IMG/VR virus record: IMGVR_UViG_3300013233_000050
Location: 1 to 23,408 of that record
Origin: a virus
Length of the DNA: 23,408 bases
Reading direction: 5' to 3' (one strand)
Shown: positions 2,476-23,186 of the stretch, in pieces
Layout: the number at the start of each line of letters is the position of its first letter
How positions within the stretch are numbered: position 1 is the first letter of the stretch
The notes under the pieces: model-generated
Told to the model about the DNA's origin: nothing
What the model saw: only the letters and a program-made list of their open reading frames with translations
The model's database searches: none
Program-made: the position numbers and the translations under genes

Positions 2476-2748
2476 TTAACACTCTGAAGTCTTACGTATC
2501 CATTCCTTAACTTCGGGGAGATTGTCTTCATACTTCTCAATAGCCACTATGACTAATTCAATCAGACGATTTTCAGATTCTCCATAAACATCGTGTGTAT
2601 TCTCTAAAAGTGTAGTTATGAACTCCAATGATGTCACATATGTGACATCATCAAGGACCACTTCGTCAGAACTATTAAATAATTGACGAATATCAATCAC
2701 AAACGTCAATCTTGCATTCTTTACAATTGGGTTTATTGTGTTTGTCAC
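2476..2748 (-). CDS. Small acidic protein of unknown function
   Basis: This reading frame of up to 90 aa is continuous with the leftward operon. I do not recognise it. It looks like an alpha/beta protein with an acidic helical C-terminus (ENRLIELVIVAIEKYEDNLP, then EVKEWIRK). The start is uncertain. GTG at 2748 gives 90 aa but overlaps 56 bases of the 52-aa gene upstream and has no clear ribosome-binding site. GTG at 2700 sits on the stop of that gene, would allow translational coupling, and leaves 74 aa starting VIDIRQLF. Confidence 0.6.
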   Translation of the reverse strand: MTNTINPIVKNARLTFVIDIRQLFNSSDEVVLDDVTYVTSLEFITTLLENTHDVYGESENRLIELVIVAIEKYEDNLPEVKEWIRKTSEC

Positions 2749-2851
2749 AATTTGGTTTGCGTCGGACAGTATATAATGACGTGTCTACTGAGGCAACATC
2801 ACCAGCTGTCGTTTCTTCATCAAGGAATTCTCTAAATGATAGTTTATACAT
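2693..2851 (-). CDS. 52-aa protein with capsid-targeting-like leader and Cys/His cluster
   Basis: Translation of 2851 to 2693 gives a 52-aa protein. Its ATG overlaps the stop of the 466-aa gene (TAATG), the same junction type as elsewhere in this operon, which argues that it is a real gene. The N-terminus MYKLSFREFLDEE ends in L-D-E and matches the leader seen on the four genes upstream. The C-terminal half carries C35-x2-H38-x4-C43-x2-C46 plus C51, a possible zinc-binding knuckle, next to basic residues (VRRKPN). It could be a small packaged nucleic-acid-binding protein; that is inference. It overlaps the beginning of the 90-aa reading frame downstream. Confidence 0.6.
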   Translation of the reverse strand: MYKLSFREFLDEETTAGDVASVDTSLYTVRRKPNCDKHNKPNCKECKIDVCD

Positions 2852-4251
2852 TAATACACCTTTATGAAGAAACCAACATCGTCACTTCCTATTTTTTTAG
2901 CACCATTTATTAACTTTGTAGTTATATAATTGATGTCATTTACGTGATTGACGAAGAAGTTTACATAAAATAAACCTTGAATCTTGTTCATCAACCTCAT
3001 ACCATATTCCACATCATCAGATGCTTTATTGAACAACTCATAAAACTCAGATTTGGATAATGATTCAACAATTGTCGTGTATTTCGAATGTTGAACATTG
3101 TTGTACCATGAATATATTTCTGATTTTTTCTTACTATCTATCTTTGAAAACGGTTTACTTCGAGGTCCAAAGAAAGACCCAACTCTTAACCTCTTCAGAC
3201 CATATTTATTCAGGATTTCGTCCATAGTAGCTGCTGGTACTTTGCCTACCCGTCCACCAGTTTTAGATCCATCAGAAGTTACTTCTACTTGTACACTACC
3301 ATAATCGAACGGAAATGTCCTAATTTGGAATGAAATTGGTTTCTTTGTTTCCATGTTGACGAATTTGAATCCACCAATTTCCTTCGTTTTATTTGTTAGG
3401 TCCACAACCATATTTTGAATTTTAGCACGAAAGTTTGGAACTTCTACTTTGTGTAAATTATTATATTCAACCTTTGGTGAACTAGCTGTTACTTGTTTAA
3501 GAGATACAGGAAACACCAATTCTTCATTATACATGTTGATAAGTTCAGAGTTGAACGCATTCATCAACTCCTTGCCATCATACATATCTATGATGTCGTT
3601 GAGGTTGTTGACGATATCATAAAACTTTCGTTTGGATACCAAGAATATGTCTGCAGGATTCCAAGAATCTTTCTTCTTTTTGACTTTTGTTGTGAATTTA
3701 GTTATTAGTTTGCCGAATGGTCCATTGTCTGTACCGTCGTGAATAATGTCGTAATCGTCAATGTTACCAACAATTGATTTAATAGCTATTGGAGTTTGTA
3801 TGAATGTATTCCTCCATTTAGCGAATAATTCAGGATTCTTTATAAATAACTCTTGTTTTGTATCTTCTGCTGTTGAAACTGGGTGCAAAATGGATTCGAT
3901 TGTGGCTTTTTCGCCAGCATCAGCTAATTTTTTACCTAAACTATTGACGGATTTGGAACCAGCTCCACCAAATTCCACAGTCTTTTTGAGTTTGCTCAAC
4001 AATATTGATCCAGTTGGTTCAATATCGAATGAGATACTACGTGGTTTGTTTCCACTGATAATAGCGTTTATGGTAGAAATGTTTCTCACATTATTCAATA
4101 TGGATACTTCGTTGCCGTCATTAGTTTCAAATTTTGATCCGTCCAATATTTTTTGTTTGAACACATACGATCGTTTGAGTTCGTACTTCACTAATTCCTT
4201 ATAGTTCAAACCAGCTTCATTAAGGGATTCGATGTAATTTCTGAAGTTCAT
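2851..4251 (-). CDS. Large protein of unknown function with capsid-targeting-like leader
   Basis: This 466-aa protein starts MNFRNYIESLNEAG, in which L-N-E fits the T4 gp21 cleavage rule (I/L)-x-E. The same MNFRNY opening begins the 505-aa protein encoded just upstream, so the leader is shared while the bodies differ. Around residues 195-260 it has SWNPADIFLVSKRKF followed by a helical stretch and LVFPVSLKQV. I recall a WNPADI block of this kind in hypothetical proteins of other marine T4-type phages, but know no function for it. A second block, KVGGFKFVN to GSVQVEVTSDGSK-like strands, lies in the C-terminal half. No transmembrane segment or signal peptide is visible. The ATG overlaps the previous stop (ATGA). 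It is probably packaged in the head if the leader works as in T4. Confidence 0.85.
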   Translation of the reverse strand: MNFRNYIESLNEAGLNYKELVKYELKRSYVFKQKILDGSKFETNDGNEVSILNNVRNISTINAIISGNKPRSISFDIEPTGSILLSKLKKTVEFGGAGSKSVNSLGKKLADAGEKATIESILHPVSTAEDTKQELFIKNPELFAKWRNTFIQTPIAIKSIVGNIDDYDIIHDGTDNGPFGKLITKFTTKVKKKKDSWNPADIFLVSKRKFYDIVNNLNDIIDMYDGKELMNAFNSELINMYNEELVFPVSLKQVTASSPKVEYNNLHKVEVPNFRAKIQNMVVDLTNKTKEIGGFKFVNMETKKPISFQIRTFPFDYGSVQVEVTSDGSKTGGRVGKVPAATMDEILNKYGLKRLRVGSFFGPRSKPFSKIDSKKKSEIYSWYNNVQHSKYTTIVESLSKSEFYELFNKASDDVEYGMRLMNKIQGLFYVNFFVNHVNDINYITTKLINGAKKIGSDDVGFFIKVY

Positions 4252-5765
4252 TTGTTATCCTTGTATGCGGCTCTTATTTCGTCGTACATGTCATGGATTT
4301 GTTTTGGCGTATTAGCAATAAAGTATTGTTTATCGTCAATATTATCAATAACTTTGCTAGCAGATATGTCAGAATCAGATCGTGTCATTTCTTTAACTGT
4401 AACACCAACGGTATGTTTCAATTGATCTTGATAACTCCGTACTCTATCGGATCCAGCATAAATGACATTGATATTATGTGGTGATTTTTGAATAATTGTT
4501 GTCAGATTGCCGTTAATGCTGTTAATAATAGTCACACCAGGAAACGTTGCTTTCAACATACGTTCGCGGAGAGATTTAGTTCCTTTTGTTTCTTTGTTAG
4601 TTACTACATCGATAACCACGTTATCGTACGTACGTAATGCTCGTTCGATTAACTTAACATGACCGTCTTTTGTCAACACTCTGAATTTGCCTAAGATCAA
4701 AGCATTGTTGTTACCTTCCATACTCTTGATCAATAGATTCTTTGCGTTCACCTGAATATCATCTTTAATGATTGCAGGTCCTTTTTTAGAATGAGTGAAA
4801 TCTAGTTTATATCTTCTAAGATCGTCAGACAGTTCACCAATTACGTCAGGAAGACTTCTTGAACCAACTGTGATTCCTTGGGATATTTCAAAAGCGACGC
4901 GTTTGACATTATTCCAATAGTTCGTTTCATCTAGTGGATTGTCCTCACGATATTTCATCTTAATCTGTAGTCGAGCAACTTGATCCACCTGATATTCTTG
5001 TTGGAATTTCAAGTATCTGTCGTCGTATTTAATGACTACTCCTTCTTCTTTGCCACCATACTTCGATTCGACACTCAGGAATAGTTCTCGGATGTCATCA
5101 ATTAATAATTCATCAACGTCCCAACTCATTGATTTATCACGTTTATTGAATTCTGTACGAAGATTTTTATTAATGATTCCGTCTTGAAACGACTTAGATG
5201 TTCCCATCACACCACTAAACAACAATTGGGGAACGTCAATCTTCAATTCTTTTGCGTAACTATCTCTATTTTGAGTATTGAATCCATTAGGAGATGTTTT
5301 CAATTTGCCAAACTTATCAGTCCATGTGGATTTACTCCACGCAATTAGAACCATTTTATGAGTTCTTGAGTAATTGCTAGACAATGTTGGTTTTCTCATA
5401 AGATATTCAATAAAAAGTTCAGTGCCAACAGGAATCGCGTTTTTTCCTAACTTAGTGAGATGAGTGAATACTTCTTTGAATTGTGACGATCCAATTGATT
5501 CTTTCTTTACTTTGGTGTTTGGTTGGTAGTTATATTCATCGGTATATAATATGTTTCCTTTATACGCAACGATGTAATCATCTAAGTGACCAGTATTGGA
5601 TTTCTTGATGATTGTGAGTTTCACACCATCTGTTTTATGTTCAACTACAACTGGTTTAGATAAAAAGTCACTTCTTTTCTTATCAGATGTCAGATATTTC
5701 CCAGCAGCGAGAATACTGATATCTAATTTATCAGCTGTTTCTATTAAATAATTCCTGAAGTTCAT
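4248..5765 (-). CDS. Ligase-type adenylation domain fused to cytidylyltransferase-like domain
   Basis: This 505-aa protein has three parts. Residues 1-9, MNFRNYLIE, form a capsid-targeting-like leader ending in L-I-E. Residues ~35-265 look like the nucleotidyltransferase domain of ATP-dependent DNA/RNA ligases: motif I K44-T-D-G47, a motif III-like ELFIEY at 116-121, motif IV EEGVVIK at 240-246 and motif V YLKFQ at 251-255. K44 would carry the AMP. Residues ~350-500 resemble the HxGH nucleotidylyltransferases (NMNAT/PPAT type): ALILGKF, T365-K-D-G-H369 in place of the HxGH box, GSDRVR at 438-443 and ISASK at 467-471. The last two are typical of phage members of this family. The HxGH box has one extra residue and T instead of the first H, so activity there is uncertain. 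No OB-fold follows the adenylation domain. The gene is spaced 2 bases from the kinase-like gene upstream. Confidence 0.85.
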   Translation of the reverse strand: MNFRNYLIETADKLDISILAAGKYLTSDKKRSDFLSKPVVVEHKTDGVKLTIIKKSNTGHLDDYIVAYKGNILYTDEYNYQPNTKVKKESIGSSQFKEVFTHLTKLGKNAIPVGTELFIEYLMRKPTLSSNYSRTHKMVLIAWSKSTWTDKFGKLKTSPNGFNTQNRDSYAKELKIDVPQLLFSGVMGTSKSFQDGIINKNLRTEFNKRDKSMSWDVDELLIDDIRELFLSVESKYGGKEEGVVIKYDDRYLKFQQEYQVDQVARLQIKMKYREDNPLDETNYWNNVKRVAFEISQGITVGSRSLPDVIGELSDDLRRYKLDFTHSKKGPAIIKDDIQVNAKNLLIKSMEGNNNALILGKFRVLTKDGHVKLIERALRTYDNVVIDVVTNKETKGTKSLRERMLKATFPGVTIINSINGNLTTIIQKSPHNINVIYAGSDRVRSYQDQLKHTVGVTVKEMTRSDSDISASKVIDNIDDKQYFIANTPKQIHDMYDEIRAAYKDNK

Positions 5766-5767
5766 AC

Positions 5768-6289
5768 TTACCCCATCACTCTAACTGAATATTCTGTCAT
5801 ATTATTTAATGACTCATATGTTTCTTTAGCTCGTTTATTAGTCTTCTCGATCTTCCATTCAGGAATCGATGATTGCTTACCAAGTTTTGTTCGGTCGTTC
5901 ATACGTTTAATAGCTACTTTTACATCAGTATCAACTAATACCAATCCAACATTAAATCCTGACTTTTGAGCTTTTACAATCTTATTTTCGATTGCTTTCG
6001 CTCCAGCACCAGTAGTCACTTGAGCAAACGACTTACCCTTACTTAAATACGAATCAATTTGTTTGGTAGCTATAGATATTCCTTTACTCAATGAGGATCG
6101 AGTCTTTGAGAAATCACCGCCCGTTAAGTCGTAAACAATTTTATCTAAGTCGATCAGAGGAAATGATAGGTTACTATCATACCAATAATTCTTTCCTGAT
6201 GCTGACCCACCGATGATTATAACAAATACCTTCTTGTCGTTCTTCATGGTTGATAGGTCAGATTCAGTTAATAATCCAATAAATGACAT
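5768..6289 (-). CDS. P-loop kinase-like protein with capsid-targeting-like leader
   Basis: This 173-aa protein begins MSFIGLLTESD, with L-T-E as a possible prohead-protease site. A strand, VFVIIIGG, then runs into a Walker A loop, G27-G-S-A-S-G-K33-N34, followed by LIDLDKI (D47, D49). This resembles small nucleoside, polynucleotide and zeta-toxin-type kinases. The Ser/Thr that normally follows the Walker lysine is Asn. A later VGLVLVDTDVKVAIKRMNDR looks like the strand and lid helix that carry the arginine of such kinases. The substrate cannot be told. The start overlaps the stop of the nucleotidyltransferase gene upstream (TAATG), and the ligase-like gene follows after 2 bases, so the three are probably co-translated. 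Confidence 0.8.
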   Translation of the reverse strand: MSFIGLLTESDLSTMKNDKKVFVIIIGGSASGKNYWYDSNLSFPLIDLDKIVYDLTGGDFSKTRSSLSKGISIATKQIDSYLSKGKSFAQVTTGAGAKAIENKIVKAQKSGFNVGLVLVDTDVKVAIKRMNDRTKLGKQSSIPEWKIEKTNKRAKETYESLNNMTEYSVRVMG

Positions 6290-7503
6290 TATTCGTATCC
6301 AATTAGTGATCTGAATGATTCTCTAGTACGACGTTGACCGTATTCCTTATAATAAGCTTCAACTAAACTCTTCGATTTGTCCTTGATTCGTAGTTCCTTA
6401 ATGAATCGTTGATAACCACCTGATTTTACTTGATAATCTAACTCTGGGTCATTAACTTCTAACTCTTGTGCTCGTTGTGGTTTCAATCCCCATAACAATT
6501 CCAAATATCTGTCGTGTGTAGCTGCGATTTGAGACTTATCTAAATATTTAGACATTAACTCCAATACTCCAACAAAAGAATTGAATAATTTGACGTCAGA
6601 TTCGTGACCCTCTAATTGACCAAATGATAATTTGTAAATATTAGCAACAACTGTTTCGTAACTACTTGATTTACTTGGGATTTCTTTATATACTTGTTTC
6701 CCATCAGCGAATATATCATTTCCATCGTGATCCAACATAGGTTCATAAGCTACTCTAATTCCTCTACCTACTGAGAATTTCAACATTTTAGGAATTTGGT
6801 GTTGTTTAGCTTTAGTAAGTACAATTTTTTCAGGTGTTGATTTGCCAGTAGCGATAACGATATCTTTTCTCACTGACGCACCACCGACAAGTGAACGGAT
6901 GAGGTATTTATGATTAACTGCTTTGATTGATGCTTTAGCGTCATCGAATGATGAACTATGAGAGAACTTAGCCCATTCGGTGGGTAAATTATCTTCAAAT
7001 TCAAGGAACTCAAAATCTACTTGAGCAGGAACACGCAATCCGTCAAACTCCACAAGGATTACGGAGTTAATTTGATCTCCAATAGCTGATGGAGTATGTT
7101 TATTTGACCCCATATATTTAGCGCCAGGAATAATATATTTACCTTCGATACTATCGAGATACTCCCACATTTCTTCTTTAAGTTCAACAGGTAGTGCAAT
7201 ATCTAGGTCACCAGCACTTGATTTATATTTAACGACTTCTTCATCTGAATACTCAGGATTCATAATGTAGCTTGTTGATCCGTTGAAGGCAAAACCGTTA
7301 GCCAGGATTGATTCATCAACCCAAATAGGTTTATTGTATCGTTTTTTGAAATCTTTATTCATTTGTTTAAAGATTGCCACGAATACTTTAATAAACTTAG
7401 ATCTGCCGATTTGTTTAACTGGGATTTTCTCAGCGTCAATAGTAGATCCGTCGCGTTTATTTGTTGCTCTGACGTTTCCGCCCTCATTTAGATATGTTTT
7501 CAT
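6289..7503 (-). CDS. Pol-beta-superfamily nucleotidyltransferase with capsid-targeting-like leader
   Basis: From the ATG at 7503 the product is 404 aa and starts MKTYLNEGG, with L-N-E as a leader end. A TTG at 7530 is in frame and would add nine residues, but it would hide the leader and overlap the gene upstream. The ATG has GGA 6 bases before it and lies one base after the upstream stop, so I prefer it. The fold signature is clear: FNGSTS (G75-S76) as hG[GS], then GDLDIAL (D99, D101) as the metal-binding D-h-D, and AQVDFEF (D163) as the third carboxylate. This family adds nucleotides to RNA, proteins or small molecules; the substrate is unknown. I recall similar NTases in other marine T4-type phages. 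The remaining ~230 residues look helical and are unassigned. Confidence 0.85.
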   Translation of the reverse strand: MKTYLNEGGNVRATNKRDGSTIDAEKIPVKQIGRSKFIKVFVAIFKQMNKDFKKRYNKPIWVDESILANGFAFNGSTSYIMNPEYSDEEVVKYKSSAGDLDIALPVELKEEMWEYLDSIEGKYIIPGAKYMGSNKHTPSAIGDQINSVILVEFDGLRVPAQVDFEFLEFEDNLPTEWAKFSHSSSFDDAKASIKAVNHKYLIRSLVGGASVRKDIVIATGKSTPEKIVLTKAKQHQIPKMLKFSVGRGIRVAYEPMLDHDGNDIFADGKQVYKEIPSKSSSYETVVANIYKLSFGQLEGHESDVKLFNSFVGVLELMSKYLDKSQIAATHDRYLELLWGLKPQRAQELEVNDPELDYQVKSGGYQRFIKELRIKDKSKSLVEAYYKEYGQRRTRESFRSLIGYE

Positions 7504-7504
7504 T

Positions 7505-8114
7505 TTACGTCCATTGTTCAGAATTTTCAATCATTTTAGTTATTCGGTCTTCGTATTGTTTATTTAGTTGAATAGGATAAAAGTTATTGGGTGTATAATC
7601 TACGCACACATTCATTCTATCGATATCATCATCGTATTTATCAGGTGACTTATTATGGATATGTCCGTGTATAACCTTAGTACATTTATGTTTTTTAATC
7701 AACTTAATCATGTGATTTTCTATTTGTTTTGTGTATGGAGTCTTGAAGCAAGGATAGTGACATAAAAGTGTATCGTCAACAATCATATATGGTTTAACAT
7801 CGATAAACCCAGCATCCAAGTAAAACTGATCGTCACATTTATCGTGGTTTCCACGTATAAGTATCTTTCTTCCTTTCATTAATCCTAATAAGTCAGAAAA
7901 TACATTCTCTCTACCACGTAACGCAATCGACAAGTCTCCCAATAATATTACTACATCGTCATCATTTACTACTTCGTTGTGTCTGACAATCATCATTTTG
8001 GCGTTATCTATTACACAATCTTCGTGATGAACATCGAATGGTCTATTTGCATACTTAATTATGTTGCTATCGGTGAAAAAAGTGATGATCGCTACTAACG
8101 AATACTTTTGCCAA
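7505..8114 (-). CDS. Calcineurin-like metallophosphoesterase, N-terminal motif in another frame (+1 shift)
   Basis: The main frame (downstream of ~8071) shows the calcineurin-like phosphoesterase motifs LLGDLS, IRGNHDK, LCHYP and HGHIHNK, and the family's NIIKYANRPF segment. It lacks the first motif D-x-H. That motif is present just upstream in a different frame: a strong Shine-Dalgarno AGGAGGT (8125-8119), 4 bases, TTG at 8114, then MAKVFVSSDHHFFHR (D9, H11) and a stop TAG at 8069-8067. A +1 shift at or just before CGA-TAG-C joins SSDHHFFH to NIIKYANRPF and restores the family layout, ~202 aa. The in-frame ATG at 8131 gives 208 aa but lies upstream of the Shine-Dalgarno and lacks D-x-H, so I do not favour it. 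The cause could be programmed frameshifting, a mutation or an assembly error. It heads the leftward operon. Confidence 0.75.
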
Positions 8115-8150
8115 AATGACCTCCTATACACTGTATTTTTACAATAATAC

Positions 8151-8158
8151 TATTTATA
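8151..8158 (-). promoter_or_regulatory. T4-type late promoter for the leftward operon
   Basis: The minus strand reads TATAAATAGTATTA, a full match to the T4 late -10 box. Transcription would start near 8145, ahead of AGGAGGT at 8125-8119 and TTG at 8114. It faces away from the plus-strand late promoter at 8184-8191, so one 40-bp region feeds both operons. Confidence 0.75.
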
Positions 8159-10513: not shown

Positions 10514-10684
10514 ATGTTTGTATTGAATCTACAACTCGTGGGTTCCGAAGGCAGTCCTGACACATACGAATTACGTGGTGTCGATGTCGCAGAATTAGTG
10601 TACGTGACACCAGAAAAATACGAAAATGTAGTAGTGTCTGATTTAGTCACCACTAACGTTGTTATAACGGAGCCAGTCAGATAA
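10514..10684 (+). CDS. 56-aa small protein between fibre-region genes
   Basis: An ATG at 10514 follows the previous stop by two bases and opens a 56-aa frame. Its stop TAA overlaps the ATG of the collagen-like fibre (TAATG at 10682-10686). It reads [16 protein letters not shown] and then short beta-like stretches ([24 protein letters not shown]). The tight spacing on both sides and the lack of another frame here support a real gene. I recognise no family; it may be a small structural or attachment protein. Confidence 0.65.
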
Positions 10685-13149
10685 TGCCAGTACTATTAAC
10701 AACAACGCCAACAGCCAACATTCTAACCATATATGATCAGAATTCAACTGTAACACCATCTGCGACCGTAGTAAATATATCTACTGTTGAAACAGTCAAT
10801 CAACTATCGACCAATTCGAATAGTGTAGAAATTGTACACGAATATATTCAAGGACCTCCTGGAATAGCCGGTGCGTCAGTAGTCAACACTAATATAGACA
10901 CAAATGGTCACTTGATCATAACTATGTCTGACGGAACTAACGTCAATGTCGGTGTTGTTACTGGAACAATCATAACCAATACCCAAGTTGATGTAAACGG
11001 TCACTTGTTGATAAGTTTCTCCGATGGAACAACTTCAGACGTTGGTTTGGTGGTTGGTCCTATTGGATCGACAGGAGCTACTGGCGCAATTGGTCCTATT
11101 GGATTAACAGGAACGACAGGTGCGGTTGGTCCTATTGGATTAACAGGAGCTACTGGCGCAATTGGTCCTATTGGATTAACAGGAGCGACAGGTGCAACAG
11201 GTGCAATTGGATCTACTGGATTAACAGGTGCAACAGGTGCAATTGGTCCTACTGGATTAACAGGAGCAACAGGTGCAATTGGTCCTACTGGATTAACAGG
11301 AGCAACAGGTGCAATTGGTCCTATTGGATTAACAGGTACGACAGGTGCAATTGGTCCTATTGGATTAACAGGAGCTACTGGAACAATTGGTCCTATTGGA
11401 TTAACAGGAGCAACAGGTGCAATTGGTCCTATTGGATTAACAGGAGCTACTGGATTAACAGGTGCTACAGGAGCTACTGGTGTTGCTGGTCCTATTGGAT
11501 TGACAGGATTAACAGGTGCAATTGGAGTGTCTGTAGTAGGATCGACAATCGATTTGTCGAACCACCTCATTATGAGTATGTCTGACGGAACTACTGTGGA
11601 CGCGGGGGTCATAAGTGGATCATCAACGTCAAACGCAGCTGGATCTATATTTATAACCAACGTCACACCAGTCCAAAATGGCAATGTTGGATTCAAGGTT
11701 TTTGACCAAACAACTGTGCCATCCAACATAGTATTGAGAGAGGTATTGACAGACTCCAATTTAGTTAGAGTGAGTATAATATTGATTGGCGGTGACACTT
11801 CCATATATACTCCATCAGCTACTGTAGATGGTGTAGCAGTAAACAATCTCACGGAAGATGGAGCAACGAAGAGATACTACACTGGTTATGTCGATGTACC
11901 CATTTCTCAAACTAGAACGATTATTGCTGATAATTTAAGTGGATCGACTGCGTCAGTATTAGTGAAGATGGCTCCACCTGGTCCTCAAATCCAATCAATT
12001 TCTATTGGTGCGTATCCTACTGGACAAACAGAATTGAAACTTAATGACACAATAACTGCTACCATTGTGGTTGATAATTCAGCCACACAGGCAGTAGTAC
12101 TGATCGGAGGAGCAAACTCAACACATTCGTCATTCACAATGCAAGGAAACGACACTGCTGGAGTAGGATATAAACAAGGAATCGCTCTGATAAGTATAAA
12201 CTCATTGAATGGTCCTCAAACAATCCAAGCTCAAGCTAGTAATTCACTAGCTACAACAGGAAATACCATCACGTCAGCACCACTAATGTTAAATCAAACA
12301 ATTCCGTCCATCACTGTTAACTCGTTGACGTTTCCTGTAGGACAATCAGCGTTAAAAAATAGTGAAATGTGTGTTGTAGATACAACCATAACGAATTATG
12401 ACACGGTGTCCTATAATTCTTCAAATTGTTCTATTTTGAATAATACAATATTCGGACAAACTAAGAACTTTGTTAGGGTATCTGGAACTTACGTCAATTC
12501 AGGCACAAATTGTAGCATAACAGCCACTAAACTATCGAATGGAGCCACATCCACTAATACATTCTTGATTCCGATTGTTAATGTAAGTCCGACTGCTAAC
12601 ATACAAATAGCTGGGAATCCTACATCATTAGTATCGTCTCCTATTGGCGTTGATTATTCAGTTGTAGTAGTTCCTGATCAAGTAATAACTGGTCAACCGA
12701 CATTATCTGCATCCATAGGCACATTCATTGGAACATGGGCTAATAACGCATCGTTACTAAGGATATCAGACGGATCACTCAAGGGAGTGGGTACATTCTC
12801 AGGATTATCTATTGTTGGTTTGTCTGGATTGATTGGAACAACCATTACCTCTGGTAGTTCTTACAATGTATCTGGGTTCACATCTCGAACTATTACAATG
12901 TCACCATTTTCACAACTTGCTCCATTAGGAACAACCGTAACTAATGCAGCTAAGGTACGAGCCAATTACACTGGTGGGTCAGTGTTGACATATCAAACAT
13001 CGACGGCTTCAGTATCTAAGGGATTTACTATTGTAGATTCATTGGGCAACTTCAATCCATCAGGAGATCATTTTTGGTTAAGTGATTCAGCATTCGCTGG
13101 AAGTAACACATCCGGCACACTTCAAATAGATATTCAGGAAATAGTATAA
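10684..13149 (+). CDS. Collagen-like tail fibre protein
   Basis: This 821-aa protein has a fibre layout. Residues 1-124 are an N-terminal beta region with two copies of a NGHL-I-SDGT-VG motif (68-90 and 98-121). Residues 125-281 are about 52 uninterrupted Gly-x-y triplets built from [12 protein letters not shown], a collagen-like triple helix with Thr or Ala instead of Pro in the third place. A third copy of the motif ([17 protein letters not shown]) follows, and then several Ig-like or beta domains to residue 821. Collagen-like stretches are common in phage fibres and act as trimeric shafts. The C-terminal half would carry the receptor contact or further domains. Its start overlaps the previous stop and its end overlaps the next start, both as TAATG. 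Confidence 0.85.
11056..11526 (+). repeat. DNA repeat encoding the Gly-x-y collagen-like shaft
   Basis: The coding DNA repeats in units of 18 and 36 bp, with GGTCCTATTGGATTAACAGG and GCAACAGGTGCAATT recurring with few changes. Such an array can change length by slippage or recombination and so change the shaft length. The open frame seen on the opposite strand here is only a shadow of it. Confidence 0.9.
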
Positions 13150-19518: not shown

Positions 19519-19547
19519 AGTCTACACTAAAACTAATCAAAGGTCAA
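19519..19547 (-). promoter_or_regulatory. Sigma70-type early promoter, copy 1
   Basis: On the minus strand TTGACC, 17 bases, TAGACT. The -35 box lies over the end of the 265-aa frame. A stretch of about 30 bases including spacer and -10 is almost identical to the promoter at 20746-20718, so one copy arose from the other. Used by the host polymerase, it would make the downstream gene early. Confidence 0.75.
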
Positions 19548-20329
19548 CAGAATTGTTCAGGATAATTAATCATTAATTGTCGGAATTTATCGGAAAAGTT
19601 ATAAATACTAAACCACTCGTAATCGATATCTGCTAAGTTGACACAACCTTCGAACATTCTATCTATGTCTTCCGATACGTTGAATAACGGAATAGTAGTT
19701 AATGAGATACATTCACGAAACATACATAACGAGTATTTAACTTCTGACATATCTAATAACGGAATAGTTGTTAGTGATGTGCAATAATTAAACATCCAAT
19801 TCGTATTGTCCACTTTTGACGTATCTAACAACGGAATAGTAGTTAATGACGAACAACAATTAAACATCAAACTCATATCAGTCACTTTTGATGTATTCAA
19901 TAGTGGAATAGTTTTCAGAGACCTACAATCGTCAAACATGTTATTTGTACACCAAACTTCTGACATATCCAATAATGGAATAGTGGTTAAGGTCGTACAT
20001 TCTGTGAACATGAAACTCATATCAGTTACTTTTGATGTATTCAAGAGTGGAATGGTTTTCAGAGACCTACAATTATCGAACATATGAATCATATCAGTAA
20101 CATTTGATGTATTCAAGAGTGGAATGGTTTTCAGAGACCTACAATTGTCAAACATATGAATCATATCAGTAACATTTGATGTATCCAATAAAGGAATAGT
20201 AGTCAATGATGTGCAATCATAGAACATGAACCTCATATCAGTTATGCTAGAATAATCATATTGTTTTAGTTCTTTGTCACTTATTCCGTGTAATATTAAG
20301 TCACGCAGTTCCTCTTTTGAGTGACACAC
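19544..20329 (-). CDS. BspA-like leucine-rich repeat protein (DUF285 type)
   Basis: The protein has about nine 24-residue repeats of the form DTSNVTDM-MF-C-SLTTIPLL, the BspA/DUF285 type of leucine-rich repeat. These form curved solenoids for binding proteins or surfaces. No signal peptide is seen, so it probably stays in the infected cell. Two consecutive repeats are almost identical at DNA level. The C-terminal cap is CVNLADIDYEWFSIYNFSD. I place the start at GTG 20329, because VCHSKEELRDLILHG then aligns without gaps with MVITKNEFLSLILHG of the 119-aa paralogue upstream. TTG at 20341 is in frame and gives 265 aa. The GTG lies four bases after the stop of the paralogue, which fits reinitiation. 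It is read with it from the early promoter at 20746-20718. Confidence 0.85.
   Translation of the reverse strand: MCHSKEELRDLILHGISDKELKQYDYSSITDMRFMFYDCTSLTTIPLLDTSNVTDMIHMFDNCRSLKTIPLLNTSNVTDMIHMFDNCRSLKTIPLLNTSKVTDMSFMFTECTTLTTIPLLDMSEVWCTNNMFDDCRSLKTIPLLNTSKVTDMSLMFNCCSSLTTIPLLDTSKVDNTNWMFNYCTSLTTIPLLDMSEVKYSLCMFRECISLTTIPLFNVSEDIDRMFEGCVNLADIDYEWFSIYNFSDKFRQLMINYPEQFC
20032..20175 (-). repeat. Near-identical 72-bp tandem duplication in the BspA-like gene
   Basis: Two successive 72-bp units (TCAAGAGTGG begins at 20041 and again at 20113) differ at only a few positions, while the other repeats of the gene have diverged more. This indicates a recent gain of one 24-residue repeat. Confidence 0.85.
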
Positions 20330-20333
20330 AATC

Positions 20334-20693
20334 TTACACAAAATATTCAGGACAGTTGGATCTTAGTGTAGAAAACGACGTATCGAAATCATACACGCAC
20401 ATCCAACAATAGTCTATTTCCGACAGATTTACACAACCACTAAACGTATTATTCGTTACATTTGATGTATTCAACAATAGGGTAGACTTTAATGACGTAC
20501 AACGAGTAAACATATAACTCATATCAGTTACATTAGAAGTATCAAAAAAGGAATAGTAGTCAATGACGAACAACCATAGAACATAGAACATATGGTTCAT
20601 GTCTGTTATGCTCGAATAATCATATTGTTCGAGTTCTTTGGTGCTTATTCCGTGTAATATTAAACTAAGAAATTCGTTCTTTGTTATGACCAT
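20334..20693 (-). CDS. Short BspA-like paralogue with compensating frameshifts
   Basis: This 119-aa protein is a short relative of the gene that follows it. It has the same cap (NEFLSLILHGISTKELEQYD), SSITDMNHMFY, FDTSNVTDMSYMF, CTSLKSTLLLNTSNVT, and the same C-terminal cap (GCVNLSEIDYCW). Between MFY and FDTSNV it reads VLWLFVIDYYSF, where the family has DCSSLTTIPLLD. The DNA explains this. A 7-base duplication (CATAGAA twice on the plus strand, 20575-20588) shifts the frame, and one missing base near 20543-20549 restores it. In the shifted segment the other frame still reads GCSSLTTIPF. The protein has two extra residues and lacks a normal repeat there. ATG 20693 has GGAAGGAGAT ahead of it. 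Confidence 0.75.
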   Translation of the reverse strand: MVITKNEFLSLILHGISTKELEQYDYSSITDMNHMFYVLWLFVIDYYSFFDTSNVTDMSYMFTRCTSLKSTLLLNTSNVTNNTFSGCVNLSEIDYCWMCVYDFDTSFSTLRSNCPEYFV

Positions 20694-20749: not shown

Positions 20750-21403
20750 TTATTTCAAGAACTTACAATTCACTCTGTGAGATTCTAACGTGTCACCACG
20801 AGAACTCTTGATTTTGTCGTTTTTGTAATAATAACATTCGTCGATATCTTTATTATATATTCTTTTCCAAAATGCCACTGGATAAGCCAAACCTATTTTA
20901 CCGATTCGTTTGGGGTTTGGTCCATACACAACACCATTCACAACATTAACGACTTTGTATTGTTTGGCTAAATATCGTTCCCTACGTTCTGCCTTGATCC
21001 ACGTTCGTCTGTTAATTACTTTGTATTGAGGGATAATATTAGCCATTGAATAAACAGAATGCAATGAATCGCGGGACCAATCAAACGATGCATCAGGTGC
21101 TAAATGACCTCTGTCTGCATGGAATGCGTTATGAGTATAATCTTTCGATTTGGTTCTGTATTGTTTAGGAATGGATCTGTCAGAATAAAACCCAGGTCTC
21201 TTCTTAATGTTGATGAGATCCATGTTATATCCATGTAAAGTATAAGTGACGTATTTAGCGCCCTTGTAGTTATAGTCGAAACATATCTTATAATACGTTT
21301 TATCCAATATCTGATCACAATTAACAGAGTTCATGGGATTGGAGTATGCAACAGTCGACAAACACAATAACATCACAATAAACATGGATCTCATCATAAT
21401 CAT
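20750..21403 (-). CDS. Secreted DNA/RNA non-specific endonuclease (beta-beta-alpha metal type)
   Basis: This 217-aa protein has a signal peptide (residues 1-21, MFIVMLLCLSTVAYS, cut probably before NPMN). Next comes the non-specific nuclease core: D97-R-G-H100 (HADRGHLAPDASF), then MANIIPQYKVINRRTWIKAE. H100 would be the general base, N131 the magnesium ligand, and E139 with R143 complete the N-x-W-x-E-x-R pattern. Family members (Serratia nuclease, NucA-like, EndA) degrade DNA and RNA outside the cytoplasm. It would be exported to the periplasm or medium, perhaps to degrade extracellular DNA or biofilm, or to handle incoming DNA of rivals. Its start overlaps the stop of the 96-aa gene (ATGA), so it is late. 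ATG at codon 4 is an alternative start. Confidence 0.88.
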   Translation of the reverse strand: MIMMRSMFIVMLLCLSTVAYSNPMNSVNCDQILDKTYYKICFDYNYKGAKYVTYTLHGYNMDLINIKKRPGFYSDRSIPKQYRTKSKDYTHNAFHADRGHLAPDASFDWSRDSLHSVYSMANIIPQYKVINRRTWIKAERRERYLAKQYKVVNVVNGVVYGPNPKRIGKIGLAYPVAFWKRIYNKDIDECYYYKNDKIKSSRGDTLESHRVNCKFLK

Positions 21404-21710: not shown

Positions 21711-21718
21711 TATTTATA
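21711..21718 (-). promoter_or_regulatory. T4-type late promoter for the 96-aa protein and nuclease
   Basis: The minus strand has an exact TATAAATA. It includes the stop codon of the GH16 fibre gene (TTA TAA). RNA would start near 21705, with AGGAG and ATG 21690 following. Confidence 0.75.
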
Positions 21719-23186
21719 AGATGGATTTCGTCATAGCGTTTCTATTATAAGATAAATTATAATCTAATCCACCAACTACTTTAGTTGCTTGATATATCGT
21801 GTCGAATGATAGTTTATTTGTTGGTACATAAATAACGTGTTCAGTTGTTGGTATGTTTAATAACGAAAAGACTTCACCACACGCTGAATTTGAATCAGAA
21901 TCGAACCACGCGTCATTAACGGTTTCTACTTCATACGTATCTTGAGATACTCCGACATAACTACACGAATCTATTGAAAATGTCAATGGTGTTGTATACG
22001 TAAACGGTCCTGACCACGCATCCACACCAGTCGTCGCCCATAGATTAAGGAACAAATTCATCGGTTTATTTGGAATTGAAGTCGTGACAGTGTGTACAAC
22101 TACACCATCAATTAACCACTTAATGCTGTTCGGTAACCACTCTATAGTGTATGTGTGGAACGCCAATGACGCATCAAATCCCAAATTAATCAATACTTCG
22201 TGTCCACCAATGCCGTTGTGGAAATAGTTTAGTTGAACTGTAGTTGTGTCTTTTCCCAAGAATTCGATATCAATTTCGTCGTGACTAGTTGTTCCGAATA
22301 CACCAGTGTACATGAATACACCATTAACTACACCTGAACCTTTAGTCGGTTTAACTGAAAATGTGGAAGTACCGTACGATAATGGTTTATTGGTTTTGTA
22401 TTCACCACTAGCGTATGGTTGATTTGAACAAGCCGATGAACCAACTGAACACAATGGGTTATTATCTAATGTAATATTCAACAACCCATTGGTAAAACTA
22501 ACGTGGTCAGAACGCCATCCAACTTGGAATGGATTACCGTTACTCCATCCGTCCGATTTGGTCCACATCGCTGAGTTAGGACCATTAAACGGAAAAGCGA
22601 ATGATACCATATTAGATTTAATTCTAATGATCATTGCGTCCTTACCTAAACCATTGAAAAGATTGAACATATCAGAACCAACAATATATCCGTCAACTTC
22701 TAAACCTAAATCGGTTGTGGATACATAAACATCTTTAATGACCACAGCTATATTTCTATCAGGTGTCATAAAAACTATTTTTCCAGATTGGGATAACGCG
22801 GAGAATACAAGTCTTCTATTATTTGATTGCGATGTATCTGACCCTTGTCTTGTTAAAACATCTCTAAATATATCGTGAGTGTGAATGCCAGATATTGTTG
22901 TTGAATTGTTTTTTGATTTCGTTGAATTATATTCTGTTAATTCTGACGGTGTCATACCAACTATTGTTTTATTCAACAAGTTTGTTATCTTTGTCTTGTG
23001 ATTGATTAGTTCGTTATTATCGTAAATATCATCATTCAACACACCTTCGGATTGTTTGAATCCTGACAATGTGGAAGTGTGAACATAATCTAAGAATGAA
23101 ACAACTTCAGATAAAAATTCATTCTTCTCCCTCTCGGATTTAGCTGCGGTCGTTTCGTTAGTTATGGTTCTTACAGTAAATGACAT
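21714..23186 (-). CDS. Tail fibre/adhesin with GH16 licheninase (beta-1,3-1,4-glucanase) domain
   Basis: This 490-aa protein joins a phage N-terminal region to a glycosidase. Residues 1-100 are helical (KSEREKNEFLSEVVSFLDYV). Residues ~95-170 match the broken fibre fragment at 18248-18536. Residues ~197-412 are a GH16 domain very like bacterial lichenases: MWTKSDGWSNGNPFQVGWRS, HDEIDIEFLGKDTTTVQLNY and GGHEVLINLGFDAS. Then come HTYTIEWLPNSIKWLIDGVV and NLWATTGVDAWSG. The catalytic E304-I-D306-I-E308 is intact (nucleophile E304, acid/base E308). Residues 413-490 are a C-terminal region I do not recognise. There is no signal peptide. It probably sits on the virion and cuts mixed-linkage or related glucans on the host surface. 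ATG 23186 has GAGGT upstream and its own late promoter. Confidence 0.9.
   Translation of the reverse strand: MSFTVRTITNETTAAKSEREKNEFLSEVVSFLDYVHTSTLSGFKQSEGVLNDDIYDNNELINHKTKITNLLNKTIVGMTPSELTEYNSTKSKNNSTTISGIHTHDIFRDVLTRQGSDTSQSNNRRLVFSALSQSGKIVFMTPDRNIAVVIKDVYVSTTDLGLEVDGYIVGSDMFNLFNGLGKDAMIIRIKSNMVSFAFPFNGPNSAMWTKSDGWSNGNPFQVGWRSDHVSFTNGLLNITLDNNPLCSVGSSACSNQPYASGEYKTNKPLSYGTSTFSVKPTKGSGVVNGVFMYTGVFGTTSHDEIDIEFLGKDTTTVQLNYFHNGIGGHEVLINLGFDASLAFHTYTIEWLPNSIKWLIDGVVVHTVTTSIPNKPMNLFLNLWATTGVDAWSGPFTYTTPLTFSIDSCSYVGVSQDTYEVETVNDAWFDSDSNSACGEVFSLLNIPTTEHVIYVPTNKLSFDTIYQATKVVGGLDYNLSYNRNAMTKSIL

Follow-up and report, generated by a model that had tools for sequence, protein, structure and literature searches.

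Why should five consecutive genes encoding otherwise dissimilar proteins all begin with the same kind of short leader ending in L-x-E? The question is posed by IMG/VR virus record IMGVR_UViG_3300013233_000050, positions 1 to 23,408 of which form the stretch analyzed here (the window, 23,408 nt), and by a minus-strand block within it that encodes proteins of 404, 173, 505, 466, and 52 amino acids (aa). The answer proposed here, to which we assign a probability of roughly 0.6, is that the five leaders are capsid-targeting sequences (CTS) of the phage T4 type, which would load mainly an RNA end-healing and sealing kit into the phage head for injection together with the DNA.

Five Leaders in One Operon

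The five open reading frames (ORFs) that the original prediction had singled out from the letters alone are present on the minus strand at the positions it gave. Their starts are tightly coupled, overlapping or abutting the preceding stop, so that the five genes read as one minus-strand operon, with a metallophosphoesterase gene (7505-8131) at its head and the 52-aa gene at its end. All five openings share a leader of 7-12 residues ending in L-x-E, as had been claimed, and the bodies behind them are indeed unrelated, BLAST detecting no similarity among them. The leaders (all on the minus strand; a slash denotes the predicted cut in the sequences below) are MKTYLNE in the 404-aa protein (7483-7503), with a cut predicted from homologue starts before GGN; MSFIGLLTE in the 173-aa protein (6263-6289), before SDL; MNFRNYLIE in the 505-aa protein (5739-5765), before TADK-LDISI; MNFRNYIESLNE in the 466-aa protein (4216-4251), before AGL; and MYKLSFREFLDE in the 52-aa protein (2816-2851), which is followed by ETT, the cut being predicted before or after the next E.

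Two patterns were applied to the 29 genes called in the window, a loose one, M-x(3-9)-[LI]-x-E, and a strict, T4-spaced one, [FYW]xx[FYWL][LIVMF]xE or a form three residues longer. The five leader genes match the loose pattern in every case and the strict pattern in four, and none of the other 24 matches either. Among the N-termini of a related phage of 205 kb, the base rates are 9.7% for the loose and 1.5% for the strict pattern; against these, five loose matches in five have p ~8e-6 and four strict matches in five p ~3e-7, before a factor of ~27 for placement of the block. The strict pattern was written after the data were seen, and the evidence from homologues is therefore the better test.

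Resemblance to T4 Capsid-Targeting Sequences

The likeness to T4 on which the original prediction leaned is confirmed, IpII and IpIII both starting MKTYQEFIAE/A. In T4, where cut sites beyond the L/I-x-E rule are established knowledge, IpI starts MKTFKEFTSTTTPVSTITE/A, Alt starts MELITELFDE/D, and gp24 starts MAKINELLRE/S. Mutants of IPIII locate targeting mainly to residues 4 and 7 (the aromatic Tyr4 and Phe7) and processing to residues 8 and 10, and the cleavage rule of the prohead protease gp21 is given as L/I-X-E (PMC9026906, a review). The leaders of the 505-aa (F..Y) and 52-aa (F..F) proteins have the complete IPIII arrangement of aromatic, two residues, aromatic, L, x, E; that of the 466-aa protein (F..Y) has the aromatic pair with a longer spacer, as in IpI; that of the 173-aa protein (F..L) has L in place of the second aromatic; and that of the 404-aa protein, with a single Tyr, has the processing half only. 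The leader also lies outside the folded part of the protein where a structural model was made, residues 1-15 of the 505-aa protein being the only unfolded ones. Judged from sequence, the interpretation of the five openings as T4-type CTS is supported, and a tag followed by a putative cut site is well supported.

The Leader as a Detachable Module

Homologues that lack the leader were foreseen by the original prediction as evidence against it, and relatives fall on both sides: Vibrio and Campylobacter phages have a 505-aa homologue without a leader, whereas many IMG/VR relatives keep one. The pattern of loss identifies the leader as a detachable module. Leaderless 505-aa homologues start MSKQ-HLDISI in Vibrio phages and MQKDQIDISI in Campylobacter phages, and a distant group has nothing before the body (MLDISI). 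The IMG/VR relatives place MNFETYLSE/SRDQ, MDFLRYLNE/GKEQ, MKLRDFINE/SKEQ, MKTFKQYITE/AKAM, MSFKSFFVRRDYIVE/AKSGEM, and others before the LDISI body, so that within this one family varied leaders each end in hydrophobic-x-E directly before the same body.

The 404-aa family supplies an anchor, GGN, that is independent of any choice of cut site. Its members read either M/GGN or leader-[LIMF]xE/GGN; in the rows that bear a leader, E precedes GGN in 12 of 12, and L, I, M, or F stands two residues ahead of this E. On a tree of 27 rows, 16 of which start M/GGN, at least six gains or losses of the leader are required. Since the initiator Met is expected to be removed before Gly, Met removal from M-GGN and a cut after E would produce the same mature end. 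The Campylobacter-type start MKLSELILILE/GGN was considered as a leaderless case and rejected, the full reading being a leader inside which the BLAST alignment had begun.

Of 57 leaders drawn from the five families, 56 have a hydrophobic residue two positions ahead of the cut (background 29%), and 44 have A, S, G, or T directly behind it (background 20%); E at the junction in 57 of 57 is partly by construction, the cut having been placed at E outside the 404-aa family, which does not apply to the flanking-residue counts. Junctions in homologues thus keep hydrophobic-x-E while the remaining leader diverges, or the whole leader is lost cleanly. Several genes of the operon carry leaders in the relatives L115, L117, and L125, and the cultured Methylophilales phage Melnitz-3 also encodes homologues that bear leaders (QZI94969, QZI94970, and QZI94972). 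Homologues of the 173-aa protein start MRFIQYLIE/S, MKTFEEFLNE/S, or MLNIKFKDFLIE/S, that of the 466-aa protein in L115 starts MGFKKFLCE/Q, and those of the 52-aa protein start MSKRGFKKFLEE/E, MKFKKYLKDLAE/E, or MSFKKYMKQLAE/E. At the position of the 466-aa gene a different family stands behind the leader in L114 (MRNFRDYLNILGE/A) and L117 (MMSFTQYILE/A), a swap that can be likened to the T4 internal-protein locus. As a separate observation, the 52-aa protein retains the leader in Vibrio phages as well, although the 404- and 505-aa homologues there are leaderless, and it may be a general head protein.

Distribution of the Leader and Evidence from Virions

An exact scan of IMG/VR for MNFR[..][FY][LIF]xE returned 44 stretches, and 37 of the 45 matches begin ORFs of at least 56 aa, a few of these 37 starts (e.g., L077, L080, and L086) being probably due to chance. 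Some 20 or more bodies, unrelated to one another, stand behind this type of leader, while a permuted control pattern returned seven stretches, none a plausible gene start. DUF6267, a KWDGAP ligase-like family that is core in cyanophages, bears the leader in ~61 of 64 distinct N-termini. DUF6267 and the ligase domain of the 505-aa protein were considered as a single family, which was not supported, profile comparison aligning only the nucleotidylyltransferase domain. The bodies found behind the leader in the scan include ones that are PARP-like (L070, 2982-3294, minus), HD-domain (L067, 8029-8562), and nitrilase-like (L096, 9437-10423); all three are candidates for further injected effectors, the PARP-like one reminiscent of T4 Alt.

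Evidence from virions comes from cyanophage S-SM1, in whose purified particles the cytidylyltransferase T4-GC190 was detected (Sullivan et al., 2010, PMC3037559). This protein, a relative of the 505-aa protein's C-terminal half, starts MKKFSAFLNE/A and fits the leader rule. The 205-kb relative (G001) encodes both gp21 and gp23, the prodomain of the latter ending LVAE/G, and gp21 is also present in G010, G011, G013, G026, and G037-G040, several of these contigs bearing leaders; two long contigs with leaders, G025 and G029, lack it and are possibly fragments. The presence of gp21 was tried as a divider between leader-bearing and leaderless contigs and failed, leaderless 505-aa homologues occurring in phages that have gp21. 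The distribution of the protease is consistent with the CTS interpretation and does not discriminate.

The Cargo Proteins and Their Linkage

For the 505-aa protein (4248-5765, minus), an alignment query detected homologues at 46 loci and a plain single-protein query none. An AlphaFold prediction from four sequences was poor (predicted local distance difference test, pLDDT, 45); the model used, from 30 homologues, has a mean pLDDT of 90, with values below 50 only in residues 1-15. Foldseek matches its N-terminal domain to T4 RNA ligase 2 (Rnl2; 2hvr, E 3e-6) and its C-terminal domain to phosphopantetheine and nicotinamide mononucleotide adenylyltransferases (PPAT and NMNAT; E 5e-7 for PPAT). 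The ligase motifs K44-x-D46-G47, E241-G242, and K253 are invariant, and the RNA_ligase Pfam model is matched by 10 of the 30 homologues. As modeled, the protein combines an Rnl2-like RNA ligase with a PPAT/NMNAT-like nucleotidylyltransferase in one fused chain.

The 173-aa protein (5768-6289, minus) is a P-loop kinase of the AAA_33/zeta class, matching Pfam AAA_33 (1.3e-6) above the cut-off and zeta below it. The solved chains closest to its profile, 4gp7/4jst (1.3e-4), are labeled 'metallophosphoesterase' and correspond to the Pnkp kinase domain from Clostridium thermocellum. The 404-aa protein (phrog_19290; 6289-7503, minus) resembles Pol-beta-type nucleotidyltransferases at the level of motifs: G75-S76, G98-D99-x-D101, and D163-x-E165 are invariant in 25 homologues (the signature GS...DxD...D), and searches of Pfam and of PDB profiles gave no match. 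The 466-aa protein (phrog_1462; 2851-4251, minus) has no PDB match; its NPADI...SLK motif recalls PD-(D/E)xK nucleases. The 52-aa protein (2693-2851, minus) is small and Cys/His-rich, with a conserved ETTxxDIAxVDxxL motif, and has homologues in several relatives, in L001 (15440-15625), in Vibrio phages, and near gp15 in the 205-kb relative (L037, 63758-63940). At least one of the five leader genes, probably three, would encode an RNA-mending enzyme.

Linkage of the enzymes points the same way. The 404- and 505-aa families occur together at 50 of the 64 loci that hold the 505-aa family (some of the 64 overlap on the same contig), the kinase being present too in 12 and the phosphoesterase too in 22. 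The sharp edges that the original prediction saw around the block therefore apply to the leader, which neither the downstream epimerase nor the upstream phosphoesterase has, though the latter gene looks frameshifted at its 5′ end. They do not apply to the operon, since at those 22 loci the phosphoesterase, itself leaderless, occurs with both the 404- and the 505-aa family. Fusions join the same activities: a leader, a Pol-beta-like nucleotidyltransferase, DUF6267, and a cytidylyltransferase in L062; a leader, a cytidylyltransferase, and a zeta/AAA kinase in L087; kinase and nucleotidyltransferase in L157; and ligase and nucleotidyltransferase in L159. Ligase, kinase, phosphoesterase, and Pol-beta nucleotidyltransferase constitute a published phage and bacterial RNA-repair set (PMC7824862; PMC4411300). 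It was also observed that L-x-E/G motifs lie between domains in L087 (803-3035, minus) and L062 (from 6143, plus), DDIFLTE/GV and VLME/GIDH, which hints that a prohead protease may also separate the enzymes by polyprotein cutting.

The same folds can be read differently. If the leaders are T4-type CTS, their cargo might act on nicotinamide adenine dinucleotide (NAD) or other cofactors, restoring NAD+ after defense-triggered depletion, or on DNA ends; the C-terminal domain of the 505-aa protein matches NMNAT/NadR as well as PPAT structures, and NMNAT-like phage proteins have been discussed as counters to NAD-depleting defense (PMC7824862). This explanation is considered unlikely, though the strongest of the alternatives, given that T4 RNA ligase 2 is the nearest match to the ligase domain, that relatives match the RNA_ligase model, and that ligase, kinase, nucleotidyltransferase, and phosphoesterase together are those of the described RNA-repair set.

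Proposed Mechanism and Its Weighing

In the proposed RNA-repair scheme, the aromatic leader would draw the nascent protein into the scaffolding core of the prohead, as T4 and the proteomics of S-SM1 suggest by analogy. A prohead protease, a gp21 homologue expected outside the contig, would then cut after hydrophobic-x-E and free the mature protein in the head; DNA would be packaged around it, and the protein would leave with the DNA at infection, as T4 internal proteins do. The cargo would comprise the Pol-beta-type nucleotidyltransferase, the polynucleotide-kinase-like P-loop kinase, the Rnl2-like ligase-nucleotidylyltransferase, the nuclease-like 466-aa protein, and the small Cys/His-rich protein. 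Injected at time zero, such a kit may repair tRNA, or other RNA, that host defenses of the anticodon-nuclease type have cut, before any phage gene is expressed, a role suggested by the types of enzyme.

Several observations weigh against this scheme. The 404-aa leader is the weakest of the five, with one Tyr and no second aromatic, and the closest relatives, L115 and L116, have none. The 173-aa kinase could be zeta-like instead of a polynucleotide kinase, and NAD metabolism could instead be the role of the cytidylyltransferase domain. Neither gp21 nor gp23 was found in the 23-kb fragment. The leaderless 505-aa homologues of gp21-bearing phages imply that packaging is not essential to the enzyme. 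The phosphoesterase, which would complete the repair set, is without the tag, so that the complete kit is possibly not injected, or that step is supplied later. Finally, T4-type late promoters were considered as specially preceding leader genes, which was not supported, the consensus TATAAATA being no commoner there than before other genes at the loci of relatives (p = 0.30).

A second alternative, improbable and weaker than the cofactor or DNA-end explanation, holds that the leaders bring proteins into the prohead core for a scaffolding or core role and are afterwards removed by cutting, the enzymes acting in the head or being trapped there and not injected. T4 gp22, gp67, gp68, and gp24 also bear L/I-x-E sites, and IPIII affects head morphogenesis (PMC9026906); the bodies encoded in the window, however, appear to be enzymes built on folded catalytic domains rather than helical proteins of the core, and T4 internal proteins, like CTS fusions, enter the cell (PMC9026906). 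That the openings are chance or ordinary amphipathic N-termini without a targeting role is very improbable and largely refuted already, for although the loose pattern occurs in ~10% of N-termini and the 404-aa leader is a borderline example, no match occurs among the other 24 genes of the window, divergent homologues keep the junction or lose the leader cleanly, the same leader stands before about 20 or more unrelated bodies, and the permuted control gave no plausible start.

Novelty and Significance

CTS on varied bodies are already known, and it has been suggested that they allow T4-like phages to package varied proteins (PMC9026906). Among titles and abstract openings of the open literature since 2012 that use the term 'capsid targeting sequence', none concerns RNA-repair enzymes bearing a CTS, and other searches, of a literature made up mostly of open papers, likewise gave no such account. 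The new part is the cargo, probable RNA-repair enzymes behind the leader. Of head-loaded T-even proteins, a known action is attributed, as far as we are aware, to three restriction inhibitors (Ip1, Ip2, and Ip3) and to the ADP-ribosyltransferase Alt. If the RNA-repair interpretation is correct, many environmental T4-type phages that place this tag on RNA-repair enzymes would be injecting ready-made repair as counter-defense, which would also explain why a cytidylyltransferase turns up in cyanophage virions. The leader also offers a sequence rule for listing the injected proteins of uncultured phages, and the clean switch between M/GGN and leader/GGN makes the cut site directly testable. A broader proposition can be advanced tentatively, at slightly less than even odds: that a head pre-loaded with a tagged RNA-repair kit mends defense-made RNA damage from the first moment, and that gain or loss of the tag at the exact mature N-terminus switches enzymes between cytoplasm and virion across the T4 superfamily.

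Other Features of the Window and Its Relatives

The metallophosphoesterase gene (7505-8131, minus), recognized from its ORF and domain matches, looks to be frameshifted at its 5′ end, whether in reality or through assembly error: near 8066, the frame from ~8114 encodes the expected metallophosphatase motif SSDHHFFH and then stops, the remainder lying in another frame. Upstream of the operon an octamer scan located the T4-type late-promoter consensus (8151-8158, minus). Ten such octamers occur in the window against 3.3 expected, several of them 17-24 bases before genes, and in the relatives L115 and L117 the octamer lies 23-28 bases before the homologous first gene. Since octamers are no commoner before leader genes than before other genes in the relatives, the one upstream of the operon indicates no more than that late expression of the operon is feasible.

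A 490-aa protein (21714-23186, minus) preceded by the same octamer contains a domain of glycosyl hydrolase family 16 (Pfam, 1.3e-39) and is possibly a virion-borne polysaccharide depolymerase. Also on the minus strand are a DNA/RNA non-specific endonuclease (20750-21403; Pfam 3.8e-36) with a hydrophobic, signal-peptide-like N-terminus and two adjacent DUF285/BspA-type leucine-rich-repeat genes (19544-20693), similar proteins being found beside the homologous operon in L004 (15512-16826). On the plus strand, the tail protein adjoining the terminase has a long collagen-like repeat (10684-13149; Pfam Collagen 1.8e-22). In another contig, IMGVR_UViG_3300022538_000627 (L005, L015, and L118), each of the homologues of the 404-aa protein, the 505-aa protein, and the terminase is split, and GIY-YIG-like ORFs lie close to the breaks; the interruptions are possibly introns or homing elements, and a search for group I introns as the cause gave no Rfam match.

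Comparison with Known Systems

The leaders of the window share with the gp21-cut CTS of T4 IPI, IPII, IPIII, and Alt an N-terminal position, a length of ~10 residues, an (L/I)-x-E end, a small next residue, and unrelated bodies, and those of the 505-, 466-, and 52-aa proteins also have the aromatic pair of the targeting positions. The cargo differs, being a conserved enzyme set of which several members are likely to act on RNA, in contrast to the small restriction inhibitors or ADP-ribosyltransferase of T4, and gp21, part of the T4 system, is not seen in this fragment. The ejection proteins of phiKZ and SPN3US are also comparable, in that a protease related to gp21 cleaves many head proteins of these phages after x-x-E and the proteins enter the cell (PMC9026906), but their motif is S/A-x-E with longer propeptides, whereas the leader in the window is of the T4 type.

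As to the cargo, T4 Pnkp with Rnl1, bacterial Pnkp/Hen1, and the jumbo-phage combination of ligase, RlaP nucleotidyltransferase, kinase, and phosphoesterase likewise encode kinase, phosphoesterase, RNA ligase, and Pol-beta nucleotidyltransferase together. In those systems the proteins are produced within a cell already infected or under stress, whereas here the kinase, ligase, and nucleotidyltransferase bear a head-targeting leader; the nucleotidyltransferase of the window has no match to the RlaP Pfam model. In cyanophages, T4-GC190 and T4-GC71 (the DUF6267, KWDGAP ligase-like protein) are separate genes and T4-GC71 has no leader, whereas the window has ligase and nucleotidylyltransferase in one protein. 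The same enzyme types nevertheless stand side by side there, T4-GC190 is a leader-bearing virion protein, and in cyanophage P-SSM4 a homologue of the 466-aa protein lies beside the T4-GC190/T4-GC71 pair.

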